Shown: piece by piece, positions 2,988 through 21,586 of the stretch
Position numbering within the stretch: position 1 is the stretch's first letter
How the letters are laid out: every line of letters starts with the position of its first letter
IMG/VR virus record: IMGVR_UViG_3300001256_000123
Location: 1-22,990 of that record
DNA length: 22,990 nucleotides
Strand: one strand, 5' to 3'
From: a virus
Program-made: the position numbers and the translations under genes
The notes under the pieces: generated by a model
Told to the model about the DNA's origin: nothing
Seen by the model: the letters and a program-made list of their open reading frames with translations, nothing else
Databases searched by the model: none

Positions 2988-3074
2988 GTTTGCTCACTGT
3001 TTACTCGCTGTTTACTCGCGAACAACGCACTGTTACATCGCGTTTGCAGCGCGTCTACAGCGTGTTGTTCGCTT
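2988..3074. repeat. 11-bp-phased repeat array A in divergent control region
   Basis: Units beginning GTTTG, GTTTA, GTTAC, GTCTA or GTTGT start at 2988, 2999, 3010, (3021 degenerate), 3032, 3042, 3053 and 3064. The steps are 11, 11, 11, 11, 10, 11 and 11 bp, one DNA turn each. Typical units are GTTTACTCGCT and GTCTACAGCGT. The array lies between the divergent genes starting at 2978 and 3195 and shares units with array B at 6426-6500. It could be a multi-site operator, a replication iteron set or an intergenic cyanobacterial repeat. Confidence 0.8.
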
Positions 3075-3194
3075 GAGTTGGAGTTTAGCATAGCTTGGGG
3101 CGTATTGGGGCAAGCGCCCCCATTTGAGGCGTTTTACCAACAAGCGGGGACCAGAAGAGCCATAATGCAGAAAGTGCCCCAAGGAGCGGAGGAA

Positions 3195-6341: not shown

Positions 6342-6406
6342 GATGGCCTGGGAGTCACTTTACAGCAGTGTTCCCGTTACGATCGCCAACAGGTTCTCTA
6401 ACCAGT

Positions 6407-6420
6407 GTGTAAAAAAGGAC
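6407..6420 (-). promoter_or_regulatory. GTCCTTTTTTACAC site 1 (upstream of lysin)
   Basis: Exact 14-mer on the minus strand, directly downstream of array B and 66 nt upstream of the lysin ATG. It has the same orientation relative to transcription as sites 2, 3, 4 and 6. Confidence 0.7.
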
Positions 6421-6425
6421 GCGAT

Positions 6426-6500
6426 GTTTACGCGATGTAGACACGCTGTTACATCGCGTTGTTCGCGTGTAAACAGCGTGTTGTTCGCGTGTAAACATCG
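6426..6500. repeat. 11-bp-phased repeat array B
   Basis: Units start at 6426, 6437, 6448, 6458, 6469, 6480 and 6491, with steps of 11, 11, 10, 11, 11 and 11 bp. GTTACATCGC is the one 10-bp unit, as in array A. GTGTAAACAGC and GTTGTTCGCGT alternate in the right half. The array fills the gap between the DUF5131 and lysin genes on the lysin's upstream side. Confidence 0.8.
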
Positions 6501-8222: not shown

Positions 8223-8837
8223 TTATAGCGTAAATTCAATCACCCAGATGAGCGGGTTCTCCTCCCAGGCGTAGCCGCGTTTGGCGTTGATGCCATCCCA
8301 CAGCTCAGCAAAAATCTCGCGAGGGGAGCGATCGCCATCTAGGGTGATGCCCTCGGCGATCGCGTCAGCATCACTGATATCTTGCAGGTACTCTTGCCGG
8401 ACATCGGCCACGGCAAGCCAGTAGCGAGTAAGCACCTTGGGCATAAAGATCGATGGTCTCCACTTTGTTGGGAGCAAATCATCAGGAGACGGTGGCGTCT
8501 CCGCATTCAGGCATTCATCTGACAGCTGCCTCCACACCTCATGGGCGCGATCATCATAGTCATCGTTCGGCCATAGCTGATCAGCACTGAGGGAGCGGAG
8601 CGAGTCGTCTGCTCGGTACTGAACAGTCATCTGAGTAAAATCCTCGTCCCACTGGCAGATGCGCCAGGTTTCTCTCACCCACAAGCGATCGCCCTTGCGG
8701 CATCTAGTGGATAGGCGGCGCGTCTGCCGCTTGCTGCCGTCAGCGATCGCCCGGACCATTTCACTTTTGAACAGCTGTGGGCGATCGCAGGGAGTGTCAG
8801 GGCCTAAAAATAGCGCTAGCTGTTGACTAGACATCAT
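8223..8837 (-). CDS. Phage ASCH/PUA-like domain protein
   Basis: 204 aa from the first of two adjacent ATGs (8837 or 8834). The sequence follows the phage ASCH-type pattern: LFKSEMVRAIADGSKRQTRR at ~24-43, GDRLWVRETW, WRPSIFMPKVLTRYWLAVAD, QDISDADAIAEGI, and the closing FAELWDGINAKRGY with NPLIWVIEF. Such domains are PUA-related beta barrels thought to bind RNA; relatives occur in many phages with unknown roles. The start overlaps the preceding 52-aa gene by 11 nt. The gene is complete, with all block motifs in order. Confidence 0.8.
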   Translation of the reverse strand: MMSSQQLALFLGPDTPCDRPQLFKSEMVRAIADGSKRQTRRLSTRCRKGDRLWVRETWRICQWDEDFTQMTVQYRADDSLRSLSADQLWPNDDYDDRAHEVWRQLSDECLNAETPPSPDDLLPTKWRPSIFMPKVLTRYWLAVADVRQEYLQDISDADAIAEGITLDGDRSPREIFAELWDGINAKRGYAWEENPLIWVIEFTL

Positions 8838-8985
8838 CTGATAGCTCAGTGGCAGGAGCGAGCTTATCATCCACCAAGAGTGCCATCCTAGCCACGTCAC
8901 CAAGAACAATGTCGCCAGAGTCAGGATTGGCGATCGCCTCCAATGCCAAACGGAGACCTTTAATTCGGATGGCTTTATTGTCCAT
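8827..8985 (-). CDS. 52-aa small acidic protein, first gene of the leftward early block
   Basis: Begins MDNKAIRIKGLRLALEAIAN and continues through two probable helices (GDIVLGDVARMALLVDD) to DDV. It is too short to place in a family. The start has TAGG about 10 nt upstream. The stop lies within the overlapping start of the ASCH gene (GATGATGTCTAG), a coupling typical of this genome. It contains an in-frame HIP1 site that encodes AIA. It directly follows the divergent control region, so it is the promoter-proximal gene for ASCH, integrase and DUF5131. Function unknown. Confidence 0.55.
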   Translation of the reverse strand: MDNKAIRIKGLRLALEAIANPDSGDIVLGDVARMALLVDDKLAPATELSDDV

Positions 8986-9201: not shown

Positions 9202-9432
9202 GTGGCACAGCAACCCATGATTGGAACGCGCATACCATCTGAATGGCGCGCCGAGATCGAGGCCAGGGCGAAGCGAAGCGGACGAAACGTGTCTCAAATC
9301 CTACACGAGGCGATCGCTGTCTATCTGGGGGAAGAAAGCGGCACCACGCTGGTAGGCCGTGTCGAAGGGATAGACGGACGCTTACAGGCACTAGAGCGCC
9401 AGATATCCGCCCTCAAGGCACTCATCCAATAG
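9202..9432 (+). CDS. Ribbon-helix-helix (CopG/Arc-type) regulator with C-terminal coiled coil
   Basis: 76 aa from GTG at 9202; ATG at 9217 (starting MIGTRIP) is an equally possible start. MIGTRIPSEWRAEIEARAKR begins with the DNA-reading beta strand, and SGRNVSQILHEAIAVYLGE supplies helix 2, as in CopG-type dimers. The last ~25 residues (VEGIDGRLQALERQISALKA) are a heptad coiled coil, probably for oligomerisation. RHH proteins usually repress their own operon, and TAACA repeats overlap this start. It heads a three-gene operon with a zinc-ribbon gene 1 nt later and the Cas1-like gene after that. Confidence 0.8.
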   Translation: MAQQPMIGTRIPSEWRAEIEARAKRSGRNVSQILHEAIAVYLGEESGTTLVGRVEGIDGRLQALERQISALKALIQ

Positions 9433-9433
9433 A

Positions 9434-9628
9434 ATGCCCAGTCGCAAGAATATCTGCGGGGATTGCTCAAAACCCCTACACTCAGACGGGAAGACCAACT
9501 GGGCACAGTCACTGATCATCGACAGTGCAGGCAGTTTTAGACAGACCTATCGGTTCGTAAAGTGGGTCCATCTCGTCTGCCCTGATGACGAAGACGACGA
9601 TGAAGAGTCCGCAGGGCAAGCAGTCTGA
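9434..9628 (+). CDS. Small zinc-ribbon-like protein with acidic tail
   Basis: 64 aa, starting one base after the RHH stop. Cys8-x2-Cys11 near the start and His46-x2-Cys49 (WVHLVCP) make a plausible four-ligand zinc site. Between them is a probable beta sheet (SLIIDSAGSFRQTYRFVKW). The tail is strongly acidic (DDEDDDEES). The family is not recognised. Acidic zinc-ribbon proteins of this size often bind other proteins or mimic DNA, but this is speculation. It lies between the RHH regulator and the Cas1-like gene and so may be a partner of the latter. Confidence 0.65.
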   Translation: MPSRKNICGDCSKPLHSDGKTNWAQSLIIDSAGSFRQTYRFVKWVHLVCPDDEDDDEESAGQAV

Positions 9629-9643
9629 CCCACATTCAGCGAG

Positions 9644-9657
9644 GTCCTTTTTTACAC
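9644..9657 (+). promoter_or_regulatory. GTCCTTTTTTACAC site 2 (abuts the Cas1-like start codon)
   Basis: Exact 14-mer directly followed by ATGATG of the Cas1-like gene. The preceding GAGG, together with the motif, occupies the place of the ribosome-binding site, so the site may act on translation or transcript processing as well as transcription. Confidence 0.7.
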
Positions 9658-10404
9658 ATGATGGGACATATAAGCTATCAGCAGTCAAAGCTTCTGAGGA
9701 GTCAATACTCAATTAGTGAGGCCGCAAGGCTTGAGCTTTGCAGGTCGCTGGTAGAGGCTAGGTCACGACACATGTCCAATCTTCTAGGGCATCGGCAACG
9801 CAACGGGAGCGGTGACTGCTCAGACGTGATTACTGATATCAGGCAGGCCCGTAAAGCTATAAAGCGAAAGCAGTCCACGCCAGAGTTGATTGGCCTCATG
9901 GGGGCGATCGCTAACCAGTATTACGGCAGACTCGCGCAGCAGAGCCGGTGGACACTAGGAAGCCGCAAGGGTGCCGAGCCATTCAATACCCTGATTAGGT
10001 TCTGCTGTGGACAGCTAGAGTTGCAGTACCTGAACGCACTGCAGGACGCCGGTTTAGACCCCTGGTGCGGCTGCTTTTTAGGCGATCGCTACAATAGGCC
10101 GACGCTGGCAGCTGAACTAAGCTGGGCCTTGCGCCCAACAGTGGCGGAGGGTTTCGCCATCGCTGCCATCAACAGAGGGCAGGTGACTCTCAAAGACTTT
10201 GAGGAAGGAGCCGTGATGGTCGAGGAGGCAGCGGCCAGGCTTAGGAAGTCGCTAAGCAAACGACTAGACGAACGTGTGAGATACCGATTCGCCAGCACCC
10301 AGGAGGGAGCAAAAATGACATACAACGAGGCGATCGCCGCACAGGTACAGGAGTTTATAGGATTCTGCGGCGGCCAAACATTCAGGCCAGCTTGGTTTGG
10401 GTGA
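9658..10404 (+). CDS. Cas1 homologue, catalytically inactive, lacking the N-terminal beta domain
   Basis: 248 aa, against ~320-340 for CRISPR Cas1. From residue ~11 it follows the helical Cas1 domain: KLLRSQYSISEAARLELCRS (like the conserved R-x-QY block before the first long helix), LVEARSRHMSNLL, PELIGLMGAIANQYYGRL (the LxGIEGxAxxxYw block), Asn110 in FNTLIRFC, NALQDAGLDPWCGCFLGDR (the AGLDPxxGFLH block), RPTLAAELSWALRPTV (the SLAxDLMExFRP block), and LSKRLDERVRYR. Every catalytic position differs: Glu to Met81, His to Gly142, Asp to Glu153, second acidic to Trp156. Metal-dependent integration is therefore unlikely. No cas2, other cas gene or array is in the window. It is the third gene of an RHH/zinc-ribbon operon. 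Possible roles are a structural DNA-binding protein or interference with host spacer acquisition. Confidence 0.8.
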   Translation: MMGHISYQQSKLLRSQYSISEAARLELCRSLVEARSRHMSNLLGHRQRNGSGDCSDVITDIRQARKAIKRKQSTPELIGLMGAIANQYYGRLAQQSRWTLGSRKGAEPFNTLIRFCCGQLELQYLNALQDAGLDPWCGCFLGDRYNRPTLAAELSWALRPTVAEGFAIAAINRGQVTLKDFEEGAVMVEEAAARLRKSLSKRLDERVRYRFASTQEGAKMTYNEAIAAQVQEFIGFCGGQTFRPAWFG

Positions 10405-10405
10405 A

Positions 10406-10419
10406 GTCCTTTTTTACAC
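10406..10419 (+). promoter_or_regulatory. GTCCTTTTTTACAC site 3 (just after the Cas1-like stop)
   Basis: Exact 14-mer beginning 2 nt after the TGA of the Cas1-like gene, in the same orientation as site 2, so the gene is bracketed by two identical copies. Confidence 0.7.
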
Positions 10420-10510
10420 AAAAATGTGGAGCACCAGGGGAACCCAGAGAGTCATTCTCCTTTGAAAAGTTAGAGCCAAGCTATTACATAGTTTGTCACT
10501 TAACAAATTC

Positions 10511-10568: not shown

Positions 10569-10865
10569 ATGCAGCAAGTAGTTACACGTGACCCACCAAT
10601 GGCTAAAGCAGAACCCAAGGATGCCAATATCTCAATCGCAGAGTTTTGGCCCGTTGACCGCGACGGCAACGAGCGCTCTATTAACTCATTAATAGAGGAG
10701 TTCAAGGGGACGGAATACCAGGTATCCCCATCAACTCTACGGTCTGCCAAGGCGGGAATGTTAAGCAGAACACTAGTCAAAAATCTGCCAATTCTCACTG
10801 CACTGTGCAGCAAATGGAGCGGTAGAAAAGTATCGCTAGAGGAGTTAATTATCTACGATGACTAA
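10569..10865 (+). CDS. Unrecognised 98-aa protein, possible DNA-binding regulator
   Basis: AAGG lies about 10 nt before the ATG at 10569; ATG at 10599 (MAKAEPK) is an alternative. The protein has a polar start, then SINSLIEEFKGTEYQVSPST and LRSAKAGMLSRTLVKNLPIL, a helix-turn-helix-like succession. The C-terminal helix ends VSLEELIIYDD. I cannot name a family. The stop overlaps the next start (ATGACTAA), so it is coupled to the Rad52-like gene and shares its promoter. A regulator or a small recombination partner would both fit. Confidence 0.6.
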   Translation: MQQVVTRDPPMAKAEPKDANISIAEFWPVDRDGNERSINSLIEEFKGTEYQVSPSTLRSAKAGMLSRTLVKNLPILTALCSKWSGRKVSLEELIIYDD

Positions 10866-11442
10866 ATCTACGATGACTACTAATCTGGACAACGTTAGAC
10901 CTATCACCCCAAGAGCTGTAGACACAGGAGTAAGCAGGCCCACAAAACCGGGAGAGTGGTCCATTGACCAAATCATCTCTGCACTAAGCAGAGACATTCC
11001 AACTTGGCTGACCAAATCCAAGGAGAAGGGAGGAGCGACAATTGAGTTTGTGCCCTGGTATAGGGTGTCTAGGCTGATGGACAAATACGCTCCGGGATGG
11101 ACCTGGGAGATAACAAACGTGAGCCTCAGCAGCGATCGCATCTTTGTTACGGGGCGCTTGTCCATCCCAGCCGCCGAGGGCACAGTCTATAGGGAGGCCA
11201 TGGGTAGCGAGTGCCTGAAGGTCGAAAAGCCTATCAGGATTGAGACCAACGGCCGGGCGAAAGAATACCTACGAGAGCCTGTTACAAATCGGGTTGTCAC
11301 AGAGCCAGCAGAAATACCATACGGCGACCCAGCCACAAACTCGGAATCAATGGCATTTCGCCGCTGTGCAGCCCGATTTGGGTTTGGCCTCTCATCGTAC
11401 GAGAAAGGTAAAATCCCCAGCAACTTTTATAGGACGTTTTGA
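10858..11442 (+). CDS. Rad52/Rad22-like single-strand annealing protein
   Basis: 194 aa. The region ~25-95 contains IISALSRDIPTWLTKSKEKG and IEFVPWYRVSRLMDKYAPGW, followed by TWEITNVSLSSDRIFVTGRL. This is the strand-helix pattern of Rad52-type proteins, in which a hairpin around a conserved W/Y precedes the DNA-binding helix. Residues ~160-185 (TNSESMAFRRCAARFGFGLSSYEK) match the family's D/S-x-x-A-x-R-R-x-A-x-x-x-G-x-G-L-x-x-Y helix. Such proteins anneal complementary single strands in phage recombination. The start at 10858 overlaps the preceding stop; ATG at 10873 is possible. The gene ends at a TGATG seam with the next gene. Confidence 0.72.
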   Translation: MTKSTMTTNLDNVRPITPRAVDTGVSRPTKPGEWSIDQIISALSRDIPTWLTKSKEKGGATIEFVPWYRVSRLMDKYAPGWTWEITNVSLSSDRIFVTGRLSIPAAEGTVYREAMGSECLKVEKPIRIETNGRAKEYLREPVTNRVVTEPAEIPYGDPATNSESMAFRRCAARFGFGLSSYEKGKIPSNFYRTF

Positions 11443-11795: not shown

Positions 11796-11804
11796 CCCAA
11801 TACA

Positions 11805-11817
11805 TCCGTTTTTACAC
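11805..11817 (+). promoter_or_regulatory. Variant of the GTCCTTTTTTACAC site (site 4)
   Basis: TCCGTTTTTACAC, one substitution from the 13-bp core, 9 nt after the preceding stop and in the same orientation as sites 2 and 3. Confidence 0.55.
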
Positions 11818-11835
11818 ACATAAGGACCAGACGGT

Positions 11836-12505: not shown

Positions 12506-12777
12506 GTCGCAAGAACAACAGGACCAGAGGCATCTTGATAGAGATACCCACCGCTCTGGTAGAAGCATTGGCAACGTATACGGAAAGCTCGCAGTGGGAG
12601 GAGTCGCGCACGGTTACGGCAGCGATCGCACTGTTTTTGATGCAAGACAGTAACACCGGCTTCGGCCATTCACGGTCCGTGGCACGGATTTATTTGGATG
12701 CCTTATTTCTAGACGCCCCAAGCTTGGGGTGTTCAGCAGAAGAGGGCAAAATCACAGCAGACAGGAGCAAGGCATGA
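12502..12777 (+). CDS. Second ribbon-helix-helix-like protein
   Basis: 91 aa, with an ATGA overlap to the upstream gene. Residues ~8-46 (RGILIEIPTALVEALATYTE then SQWEESRTVTAAIALFLMQ) have the RHH pattern of a strand with alternating hydrophobics, a helix and a second helix. The C-terminal ~45 residues (GFGHSRSVARIYLDALFLDA onwards) are unassigned. RHH proteins bind DNA as dimers, usually as repressors. It lies directly before the winged-helix protein, with which it is coupled, and may regulate replication genes. It differs in sequence from the RHH protein at 9202. Confidence 0.65.
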   Translation: MSRKNNRTRGILIEIPTALVEALATYTESSQWEESRTVTAAIALFLMQDSNTGFGHSRSVARIYLDALFLDAPSLGCSAEEGKITADRSKA

Positions 12778-13943
12778 AATCAGGTTGTATCAGCCACCCG
12801 GCGGGGGAATCGATCGTCCTCATCCGGCAATGGCAAATAGACGCATTTGGCTGCAAGGTAGTCGCCGCCCTGCTCAGCTATTTCGAGTATTGGCACGATA
12901 TCAAAGCTCGATCTGTGAGAGGGGCAAGGCATCTGAATGATGTCGCCGAGCGGCACGGCGACCAGCCCCAGCAGGACACCAGCCTATTGCAATATCACAC
13001 CCTAGAGGAAATTGAGAAGGCCCTACTGACAGTCGGCAAGCGCACCAAGATATCAGCCGGGATTAAACGTCTAGATGAGGCAGGTATCATCTCAAAGCAC
13101 AAAAATCCAAACCCGCGCTATAGCTTCGATCAGACAATCTATTACCAGTTCCACCCCGAGATAGTAAACGAGTACCTAACGGCTAGAACCCGCATGGTTA
13201 CCCATAGTTCAAAAATGAACGATGGTTCATTCAGGTCTGTACTCTCGGCGTTCAGAAATGAACTCTCGGCGTACGATTCTGAACGATCTATACATAAGAC
13301 TACTTCTAAGACTACTTCTAAGACTTCTACAGAAAGAAAAGAGGAAGATTCTTTTTTTCGAGAAGAGCTTAATCAGGCAGAGGTAGAGGCGCAGACACAG
13401 GCCGGTCAACCACTCCCTGTTAAAAAGCAGCGATCGCCACAAGCGCAGCCGAATCCAGGAGGCGAAGGTTCCGCCGCGCAGTTTAATTCCTCTCAGAGAA
13501 TGGAGGAAAGATTTAACGCCGGTGCGAATCCTCACCCACATCCAGATTTGGTGAGGCTAGGCTTGGGAGGGCTGCATCAGGGCACCAAGAAACACAGCGA
13601 CTGGTGTGAGTGGGCGATCGCTGCCGCTAGAGCAGAGCTGCAAATTACAAAGCCTGATAGCGACTTGGGGATTCCCCGGTGCAAGCGCTTTATCTCAAAC
13701 CTGGTGAGTAACGCCAGGAGGGACAACGACTATGGCCGGTTGGAAATCCTCCTAGATAGCGCAAACATTCTCAGGGCCAGGACGGCGGCTGCGGCAGCAG
13801 CTGTGACAAGCGACGAACCCAAAGTCAGTCCGTTTGAGCGATCGCCAGAAGAAATTCAGTCTACCCGTGCCGCCATCGATGCCGCCGCCGCCAATCTACC
13901 CCCGGCAATCCGACGCGCTAGACAGGCCAGGAGTACGGTATGA
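12774..13943 (+). CDS. Winged-helix replication-initiator-like protein
   Basis: 389 aa. ATG at 12774 is chosen because AGGAG lies 6 nt upstream and it overlaps the previous stop. The N-terminal ~140 residues have the layout of phage replisome-organiser or plasmid Rep winged helices: VLIRQWQIDAFGCKVVAALL, FEYWHDIKARS, then TKISAGIKRLDEAGIISKHK with a strand pair after it (the wing). A repeat-rich linker (KTTSKTTSK) and a long disordered, Gln/Pro-rich section follow. A C-terminal helical domain from ~275 (DWCEWAIAAARAELQI, RCKRFISNLVSNARR) ends in an Ala-rich tail. A replication role is inferred from this layout and from position beside the Rad52-like genes. Confidence 0.6.
   Translation: MKSGCISHPAGESIVLIRQWQIDAFGCKVVAALLSYFEYWHDIKARSVRGARHLNDVAERHGDQPQQDTSLLQYHTLEEIEKALLTVGKRTKISAGIKRLDEAGIISKHKNPNPRYSFDQTIYYQFHPEIVNEYLTARTRMVTHSSKMNDGSFRSVLSAFRNELSAYDSERSIHKTTSKTTSKTSTERKEEDSFFREELNQAEVEAQTQAGQPLPVKKQRSPQAQPNPGGEGSAAQFNSSQRMEERFNAGANPHPHPDLVRLGLGGLHQGTKKHSDWCEWAIAAARAELQITKPDSDLGIPRCKRFISNLVSNARRDNDYGRLEILLDSANILRARTAAAAAAVTSDEPKVSPFERSPEEIQSTRAAIDAAAANLPPAIRRARQARSTV
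13296..13328. repeat. 12-bp direct repeat in linker (AAGACTACTTCT)
   Basis: Two perfect copies plus a third shortened one (AAGACTTCT) encode KTTSKTTSKTS in the linker of the surrounding gene. Confidence 0.9.
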
Positions 13944-14602: not shown

Positions 14603-14632
14603 TTGTGTAAAAAAGGGCAAATGTGCTAGATT
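14603..14632 (+). promoter_or_regulatory. Candidate promoter with GTGTAAAAAAGGGC (site 5, reversed)
   Basis: TTGTGT (14603-14608) and TAGATT (14627-14632) are 18 nt apart, 34 nt before the next ATG. GTGTAAAAAAGGGC (14605-14618) overlaps the -35. It is the 14-mer with one substitution, in the opposite orientation to the other copies relative to transcription. Confidence 0.45.
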
Positions 14633-17803: not shown

Positions 17804-19231
17804 TTAGGTGATTTCTACTTCCAAAATAATGAATCGGAGCGCTGTCATCTGTTTAGCGCTAAAGGTAGGCACCAGACGCGCAGGAATCGGCCTGTTGCTA
17901 TAGGTGGCAGGGTCAAAGGTATAGACGACCCGAGACTGAAGGGCATCGTCAGCACCGTAAGCAGAGAGGCACATTTCTTTAAATCCACGCGCAGTAGAAT
18001 CCCTCAAACAGATTTCACCATGGCCCGGATACCAGGGAACTATCAAGTCCTGATGGTTTATCAGGTTTGCCGATGCCCCAGGCGCTAGATACGTGGCATA
18101 GAGGACCTTGGAAGAACCCTGGGACGGATAGACCTGTTCGGATAGCCAATTATAGATTTGGTGCTGTGGACCATTAGCAATTGGCTTGCCAGCCTCAGCC
18201 AAACCAATGAAGGCGCTGCTGATATGATTAGGCCCCAGTACCTCGTATGCAAACTTGATTCGGAAGGTGCGATCGCTAGAAAACTCAGCGCCGTCGAAGG
18301 CAATGGAGCTGACAGTGTTCCAGGTTGAGTCATTGGTAGGCTTCTCTATGACAAGGCCAACGCCAGCTTGCTGTGTCAGGCGATATTCGTCAGCATCATA
18401 TCGAGCGACGATCGCATCAATATTCATTACGCGGAAGTCGTAGAGCTGTGACGATGGTTCAGCAACAGGTTCGGCAGCGCGTTCAGCAGCAGGTTCGACG
18501 GCAGGTTCAGCAGCAGGTTCAGCAGCGGGTTCAGCAGCAGGTTCAGCAGCAGGTTCAGCAGCAGGTTCAGCAGCAGGTTCAGCAGCAGGTTCGACAGCGG
18601 GTTCGACAGTAATGCCTTCAACCTTAAGCTCACCATCGTAGTAGTAAAACCCATCATACGCAGCAGACCCATCATATGTGAGGAGGTTGAAGAGTAGGCT
18701 AAGGTCTCCGATGCGCAGGTCTAGCAAGGGACGAGCCGCAGGCCGCCATTCCTCAATTAGGGCAAGCACCAGCCTAACCTGCTCGATATTAACGGGCGAT
18801 CGCTCCGGGTCAAGGTAGACGATGAAGCCCCCCAATCGACGACCGACAAAGATTTCCTCACCGTTGAAGGTCATGGCACCATCAAAGCGCAGCGGCGGGT
18901 TAGGCTCAACTACTGTATTGGGATACCCCACCGCTATCAAAGAGTTTTTGATGGCCCAGACCGTACCAGCGCGTTTGTTCAGCAGCACCGCATTAGCGAT
19001 GAGCGATCGCTGCTTATCTTCTGTATCCGCCAGCAGCCAGCCACGCAGGCCCCAAACGTTTAGTTGCTGGGCCAGGTGGGGGAGCGCGACGGCAGGCACT
19101 AGCTCAGGGTTATAGACGTGCTGCCAGTCTCCGGGGTCAGTAGCCTGGAGCTGTTTGAGGATTGCCTCAAACGTCACGAAAGGCTTATCTCTTATAGAGT
19201 TTGGCAGTAGGGAGTCCGAGTGGTCTAGCAT
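17804..19231 (-). CDS. Tail protein I (gpI-like) fused via (Glu-Pro-Ala-Ala)n linker to an extra domain
   Basis: 475 aa; P2 gpI has ~180. Residues ~1-200 match the gpI pattern: LLPNSIRDKPF, LVPAVALPHLAQQLNVWGLR, EDKQRSLIANAVLLNKRAGT with VWAIKNSLIAVGY, and EEWRPAARPLLDLRI, then the YDGSAAYDGFYYYDG strand repeat. About 13 Glu-Pro-Ala/Val-Ala/Glu units follow. The C-terminal ~210 residues (SQLYDFRVMNIDAIVARYDA onwards) are beta-rich and unrecognised, possibly carbohydrate-binding or fibre-docking. gpI forms the outer baseplate together with gpJ. The ATG at 19231 overlaps the gpJ stop (TGATG). Confidence 0.85.
   Translation of the reverse strand: MLDHSDSLLPNSIRDKPFVTFEAILKQLQATDPGDWQHVYNPELVPAVALPHLAQQLNVWGLRGWLLADTEDKQRSLIANAVLLNKRAGTVWAIKNSLIAVGYPNTVVEPNPPLRFDGAMTFNGEEIFVGRRLGGFIVYLDPERSPVNIEQVRLVLALIEEWRPAARPLLDLRIGDLSLLFNLLTYDGSAAYDGFYYYDGELKVEGITVEPAVEPAAEPAAEPAAEPAAEPAAEPAAEPAAEPAVEPAAERAAEPVAEPSSQLYDFRVMNIDAIVARYDADEYRLTQQAGVGLVIEKPTNDSTWNTVSSIAFDGAEFSSDRTFRIKFAYEVLGPNHISSAFIGLAEAGKPIANGPQHQIYNWLSEQVYPSQGSSKVLYATYLAPGASANLINHQDLIVPWYPGHGEICLRDSTARGFKEMCLSAYGADDALQSRVVYTFDPATYSNRPIPARLVPTFSAKQMTALRFIILEVEIT
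18456..18611. repeat. Thirteen 12-bp tandem units coding the EPAA linker
   Basis: Units of GGTTCAGCAGCA and close variants (GGTTCGACAGCG and others) encode Glu-Pro-Ala-Ala on the minus strand. The middle has five identical units in a row (18528-18587), while variants lie at the edges, a pattern expected from recent slippage within an older array. Confidence 0.95.
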
Positions 19232-21570: not shown

Positions 21571-21572
21571 TT

Positions 21573-21586
21573 ATGTAAAAAAGGAC
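21573..21586 (-). promoter_or_regulatory. GTCCTTTTTTACAT (site 6, one mismatch)
   Basis: On the minus strand, upstream of the RHH gene and beside its operator-like repeat, in the same orientation relative to transcription as sites 1 to 4. Confidence 0.65.

Follow-up and report, generated by a model that had tools for sequence, protein, structure and literature searches.

Inactive solo Cas1 proteins have been described in Methanomicrobiales, where they make up group 1 (PMC4046053) and have been deemed probably vestigial (PMC9755687). Viral copies of Cas proteins are known as well. In a review (PMC13131331), AcrIB3 is described as a mimic of Cas5 that acts by subunit replacement, and AcrIB4 as corresponding only to the C-terminal domain of Cas8b, which shows that a viral copy of just one Cas domain can impair immunity. 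AcrVA5 blocks Cas1-Cas2 integration (PMC11021501), which makes adaptation a phage target. Within the adaptation machinery, Cas1 dimers arise by juxtaposition of N-terminal beta domains (PMC6977970), and in type II-A the C-terminal strand of Cas2 adds to the N-terminal beta domain of Cas1 (PMC6620040). Here we describe a gene in a phage contig whose product matches Cas1 and lacks both that domain and the active site.

A solo cas1-like gene in a phage contig

The window, by which we mean the whole stretch of DNA analysed, is a linear virus record of 22,990 bp. Its right half holds a P2-like baseplate and tail module on the minus strand, and its left half encodes an M15 peptidase endolysin, a DUF5131 protein, an integrase and a TnpB-type transposase. 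The HIP1 octamer GCGATCGC occurs in 52 copies versus 0.4 expected, and the window encodes a protein of DUF2811, which we take to be a cyanobacterial family. The contig very probably belongs to a temperate, P2-like phage with a cyanobacterial host, the host being assigned because of these 52 HIP1 sites and the DUF2811 protein. The right end of the window recurs in another contig (L014), the two overlapping across 4,369 bp at 99.98% identity; beyond that end, L014 adds a late-control/baseplate-type gene. It also carries the gene for an ArdC-like antirestriction protein of the same phage (ArdcN plus MPTase-PolyVal; L014:2254-3165, minus strand), about 3.4-4.3 kb past the right end of the window.

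Several repeats lie elsewhere in the window. Two imperfect, CG-rich copies of a 73-bp sequence, full of CGCGTGTAAACA-like words, flank the TnpB gene region at 3003-3075 and 6419-6491, and they are possibly the ends of an IS200/IS605-type or MITE element. A tail protein gene holds a 12-bp tandem repeat array at 18432-18635 that codes for an Ala/Glu/Pro-rich stretch, and a different 12-bp array is found at 17-112.

The features of the cas1-like locus are the following.

9202..9432, plus strand: 76-aa protein resembling CopG/ribbon-helix-helix proteins, whose gene opens the cluster; weakly matched by Pfam RHH_1 (0.003), phrog_7325 (0.0012) and a RelB-like antitoxin (8e-4)
9434..9628, plus strand: 64-aa protein that matches no family; a CxxC followed later by another Cys looks Zn-ribbon-like by eye
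9644..9658, plus strand: exact copy of the 15-mer GTCCTTTTTTACACA upstream of cas1, its last base being the A of the cas1 ATG
9658..10404, plus strand: cas1-like gene, 248 aa (from the ORF, Pfam/NCBIfam/PADLOC, the AF2 model and Foldseek against the PDB)
10406..10420, plus strand: second exact copy of GTCCTTTTTTACACA, one nt past the cas1 stop codon
10569..10865, plus strand: 98-aa protein, no family match
10858..11442, plus strand: Rad52/Sak-family single-strand annealing protein, assigned via homologues and PDB profile matches
6406-6420 (minus), 11804-11818 (plus), 14604-14618 (minus) and 21572-21586 (minus): further copies of GTCCTTTTTTACACA

The cas1-like gene is the third plus-strand gene in a row, following the CopG-like gene and the gene for the 64-aa Cys protein with preceding gaps of 1 and 29 nt. 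Downstream, a 164-nt gap containing a repeat separates it from the gene for the 98-aa protein, after which comes the Rad52/Sak gene. A first, sequence-only reading had placed the gene in a prophage operon. This description suits the upstream side, with its two closely spaced genes, but not the downstream side with its 164-nt gap; likewise, an integrase gene is present, although the record is strictly a linear virus contig. An intrinsic terminator at the cas1 3' end was rejected, its RNA fold signal being weak (z=-0.7). That reading had also reported no cas2, effector gene or array alongside, and this holds: a PADLOC scan of nine other window proteins detected no Cas protein among them, and the repeats of the window include no CRISPR-like array, so that the cas1-like gene has neither a neighbouring cas2 nor an array.

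At a tolerance of up to 3 mismatches, the 15-mer GTCCTTTTTTACACA occurs in 6 copies (3 exact, 3 with one or two mismatches), with 0.29 expected at the same tolerance. The copies are intergenic and mostly oriented with the downstream gene, and two of them bracket cas1 exactly. We dismissed a casposon-like unit bounded by the 15-mers, there being six copies in both orientations. Two further exact copies (L178, L179) occur in another phage contig of the metagenome prefix to which L014 belongs, one of them within an ORF.

Homologues of the annealing protein, 28-45% identical to it, are found in cyanobacterial genomes. Rad52_Rad22 is matched by 6 of 12 family members and SSAP_Sak by 6, and a profile of the protein finds a DUF1071 protein and MGM101 among PDB entries. 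The phage protein itself is divergent, has no Pfam match of its own, and is recognised only via its relatives.

Homology, missing domain and lost active site

An unbroken ORF of 248 codons occupies exactly positions 9658-10404 of the plus strand. The product matches Pfam Cas_Cas1 (PF01867) at E=7.9e-29 with 101 bits, against a cut-off of 22.3, and the match covers profile positions 78-265 of 283. It scores 87.3 bits against the NCBIfam cas1 equivalog TIGR00287 (cut-off 71.7), matches NCBIfam Cas1d at E=2e-24 and PADLOC Cas1 at 6e-29, has PDB sequence matches down to 7e-13, and reaches 109 bits against a custom profile built from 55 other Cas1 rows. The motifs RxQY, GxxG, N110, GLDPxxG and RP are all present, as the sequence-only reading had recognised. 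Judged by these matches, which lie far beyond chance, the 248-aa product is a genuine Cas1 homologue. It is basic (pI 9.45, net charge about +9), and the equivalent domain of Cas1d is similar in this respect. The frame stays open for about 18 codons before the first Met and reads GPFLH there, but an upstream start gains one bit only and this stretch lies within the 15-mer repeat, so we took the extension to be chance.

What the product retains is the helical catalytic/DNA-binding domain of Cas1. The N-terminal beta domain, which serves Cas1 dimerisation and had been thought mostly absent, is in fact entirely absent, the profile match beginning at position 78 of 283. A six-frame profile search of the window detected no second Cas1-like stretch, such as an N-terminal domain, and this excludes a pseudogene created by an overlooked frameshift.

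The codons at the four catalytic positions, all on the plus strand, are as follows.

9898..9900: codon 81, ATG, giving Met in place of the catalytic Glu
10078..10080: codon 141, TTA, giving Leu in place of the catalytic His
10114..10116: codon 153, GAA, giving Glu in place of the catalytic Asp
10123..10125: codon 156, TGG, giving Trp in place of the second catalytic acid

Thus, all four residues of the CRISPR integrase active site (Glu, His, Asp, Asp/Glu) have been lost. Three of these replacements, Met81, Glu153 and Trp156, had been read correctly from the sequence, but the catalytic His aligns with Leu141 rather than with Gly142 in both the MAFFT and the HMM alignments, with no gap nearby. 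His and Asp each occupy their column in 55/55 non-redundant Cas1 rows, Glu in 53/55 and the second acid in 54/55. Catalytic residues at shifted positions are ruled out, since the alignment is ungapped around all four sites and offers no substitute acids. The conserved RRPPxD loop that precedes N110 has also been lost. Of the 57 columns conserved at >=85%, the product keeps 22, mostly scaffold Gly, Asp, Pro, Arg, Asn and Gln; the kept positions include Q16, G79, G82, Y88, R103, N110, G132, D134, P135, G138, R159, N172, D180, F181 and Q229. Because these 22 columns are kept while all four catalytic residues are replaced, the scaffold is, by this alignment, retained better than the catalytic chemistry.

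The AF2 model of the product, computed from an input alignment of 36 intact Cas1 sequences taken from fetched loci, is nearly all helical, with a pLDDT of 83 and a pTM of 0.82. When this model was compared with the PDB by Foldseek, the top matches were Cas1, Cas4/Cas1 and casposase chains, among them the Synechocystis Cas1-Cas2 complex, with TM-scores of up to 0.84 by query length. The fold match depends on the sequence match, as the AF2 alignment contains Cas1 sequences. With that dependence, the model shows that the 248-aa fragment can adopt the Cas1 helical domain. The description of the product as a solo, catalytically dead Cas1 with an ordered fold in a phage is therefore borne out by the profiles, the model and the catalytic columns. 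Neither outcome that the sequence-only reading had named as refuting it came about: profile and fold matches to Cas1 are significant, and acids at shifted positions did not turn up.

The cas1-like gene is a singleton in the databases searched: IMG/VR, about 450 cyanobacterial genomes, and phage and plasmid records yielded no close homologue. Patterns derived from the single sequence of the product retrieved no relative from IMG/VR or from GTDB genomes. Short peptide patterns likewise gave none, whether drawn from cas1, from the annealing protein, from the 64-aa protein or from the products of 12729-13943 and 8223-8909. An alignment-based scan of IMG/VR, with a pattern that permitted Asp or Glu at the catalytic Asp, retrieved six intact, type I-C-like Cas1 proteins. 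The search of 386 cyanobacterial genomes and of the 65 of one order gave matches of at most about 32% identity, nearly all of them in frames of >300 aa. The cyanobacterial matches that were fetched and aligned retain the active site, with two exceptions. One (L171) is a Cas1 fragment, a degenerate copy in a cyanobacterial genome. The other belongs to a locus (L172; G082:C21) in which ORFs from 1807 and 5569 encode an RT-Cas1 and then a second, full-length Cas1 paralogue with the active site A-H-D-A; judged by these residues, the second copy is an inactivated Cas1 in a cyanobacterial genome. Two human faecal matches to Cas1 came from 50,697 phage records, and one of them (L006) was rejected as a phage Cas1, since the Cas7-, Cas4- and Cas2-like genes around it mark a CRISPR-locus fragment. 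A search of BFVD with the predicted fold gave no viral protein at E<=0.001. In a tree of the Cas1 rows, the product forms the longest branch, 5.65 changes per site, and its placement is unreliable.

Possible roles of the Cas1 fragment

Our first choice, held tentatively, is a single-domain Cas mimic derived from a captured Cas1 helical domain that lowers spacer acquisition. A temperate cyanobacterial phage would have captured the helical domain of the Cas1 integrase, and the captured gene would have been exapted after loss of the N-terminal dimerisation domain and of the complete active site. We infer that the basic, folded product binds DNA; as a mimic, it might occupy prespacer ends, branched DNA or the leader-repeat without integrating, or it might instead engage one of the partners of Cas1, for instance Cas2 or Cas4. 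Either contact could lower the host's acquisition of spacers from phage DNA, and this anti-adaptation role is a guess. The product has the makings of an anti-CRISPR Cas mimic, being a phage-encoded Cas homologue that lacks functional parts, and the same phage encodes the ArdC-like antirestriction gene just past the window. Against the mimic stand the lack of any close homologue in the searches above, the lack of a link to adaptation rather than to the adjoining recombination genes, and the loss of the RRPP loop and of the N-terminal domain with its dimer surface and type II-A Cas2 dock. The narrower proposal, in which a phage anti-adaptation protein consisting of the bare Cas1 catalytic domain blocks spacer integration rather than interference, is more doubtful.

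Behind the mimic we place an accessory role in recombination or replication, unrelated to host CRISPR, which we regard as a rather doubtful possibility. Cas1 proteins bind branched DNA, and a dead Cas1 domain that still binds branched or 3'-overhang DNA could work with the Rad52/Sak protein, the product of the second gene downstream of cas1 (10858-11442) in the same orientation; the basic domain retained in the product is consistent with this. However, the loci of related annealing proteins that were fetched from cyanobacterial genomes have no cas1-like gene nearby, and in the phage the 164-nt gap with its repeat sets cas1 apart from the annealing gene group.

The gene might also serve no function, as a passenger: a cas1 copy taken up from a host CRISPR locus in 5'-truncated form and now in slow decay. 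Its missing 5' side, its status as a singleton on the longest branch of all Cas1 rows, the mere 22 of 57 conserved columns kept, and the occurrence of degenerate Cas1 copies in cyanobacterial genomes (the A-H-D-A paralogue and the fragment described above) all agree with decay. We nevertheless consider it unlikely, given a frame of 248 codons with neither stop nor frameshift despite four changed catalytic codons, a confident fold prediction, and a codon-position GC that resembles that of the phage's own genes. Starting from an intact cyanobacterial cas1d, we simulated drift by random substitution in 5,000 runs; indels were excluded, which makes the test lenient. A median of 21 changes sufficed to bring in a stop codon. 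Loss of all four catalytic residues preceded any stop in 1/5,000 runs, and >=7 nucleotide changes in the four catalytic codons before a stop were seen in 0 runs. Because drift reaches such a state in only 1/5,000 runs, a plain pseudogene is disfavoured, and the simulation indirectly supports maintenance of the gene as a protein, and with it the retained non-catalytic role first suggested from the sequence. It is possible that most of the divergence dates from the gene's time as an active Cas1.

The sequence-only reading had further proposed a dominant-negative partner of host Cas1/Cas2. In its classical form, in which the product replaces a Cas1 protomer in the host Cas1-Cas2 complex, this draws on the homology to Cas1d and to a cyanobacterial Cas1-Cas2 structure and on the AcrIB3 precedent of subunit replacement. 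It is weakened by the absence of the N-terminal beta domain, which builds the Cas1 dimer (PMC6977970) and on which the type II-A Cas2 strand docks (PMC6620040): the product should not ordinarily enter a Cas1-Cas2 hexamer, and we hold protomer replacement to be improbable. Because the domain for dimerisation and, in type II-A, for Cas2 binding is missing, a single-domain decoy or DNA-binding protein fits the product better than a classical dominant-negative subunit does. What the product retains is the helical domain, the part of Cas1 that grips prespacer ends and repeat DNA, and through this domain it may still compete for DNA or make a contact.

It is similarly improbable that the former Cas1 DNA surface now serves a regulator of phage transcription or of DNA sites, as the dispersed intergenic 15-mer and the nearby CopG-like gene might suggest, given that the Cas1 helical domain is, to our knowledge, not a known sequence-specific repressor fold.

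Comparison with known systems

In the literature examined, few phage blockers of spacer acquisition are described and none is a Cas1 homologue. We found no report there of a phage-encoded, N-terminally truncated and catalytically dead Cas1, although the survey of Katz et al. 2024 may list viral cas1 genes. If our readings are true, the product would be either a Cas1-derived adaptation inhibitor or an integrase domain reused as a plain DNA-binding protein, and both can be tested with the 248-aa protein in established adaptation assays.

The product resembles Cas1 of types I-D, I-B, I-C and I-G (PF01867, TIGR00287, TIGR04093) in that its helical domain is homologous over the full length at 21-30% identity, with the same predicted fold and the RxQY, GxxG, GLDPxxG, N and RP motifs. 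Unlike type I Cas1, it is phage-encoded and lacks the N-terminal beta domain, the E/H/D/E site, the RRPPxD loop, cas2 and an array. Compared by description only, it is, like Cas1-solo group 1 of Methanomicrobiales (Krupovic et al. 2014, PMC4046053), solo with an incomplete active site, whereas the group 1 genes are archaeal without sign of horizontal transfer and the product is bacterial-viral with a domain missing. With casposases (Cas1-solo group 2) it shares a Cas1 fold on a mobile element in the absence of other cas genes. Casposases, however, have intact catalytic residues as well as an N-terminal domain, and they move by terminal inverted repeats, whereas here the active site is lost, the flanking 15-mers are direct rather than inverted and occur at 4 other places, and the families matched in the window include no polB.

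Among anti-CRISPRs, AcrIB3 and AcrIB4 (Katz et al. 2024, via review PMC13131331) are likewise phage-encoded incomplete Cas copies, and AcrIB4 is also single-domain; as described there, they have been tested and target the interference complex, whereas the product would be a putative Cas1 version. AcrVA5 and truncated AcrIIA6 (PMC11021501, PMC9120153) are phage proteins that stop spacer acquisition but, unlike the product, are not Cas homologues. The second Cas1 of the cyanobacterial RT-Cas1 locus (375 aa, A-H-D-A) is, like the product, a paralogue with its catalytic acids lost, but it is full length, adjoins the RT-Cas1 gene in a cellular genome, and keeps His and Asp. Inactive solo Cas1 and viral Cas mimics are already known; what appears new, as far as our literature search reached, is a phage-borne dead Cas1 fragment.
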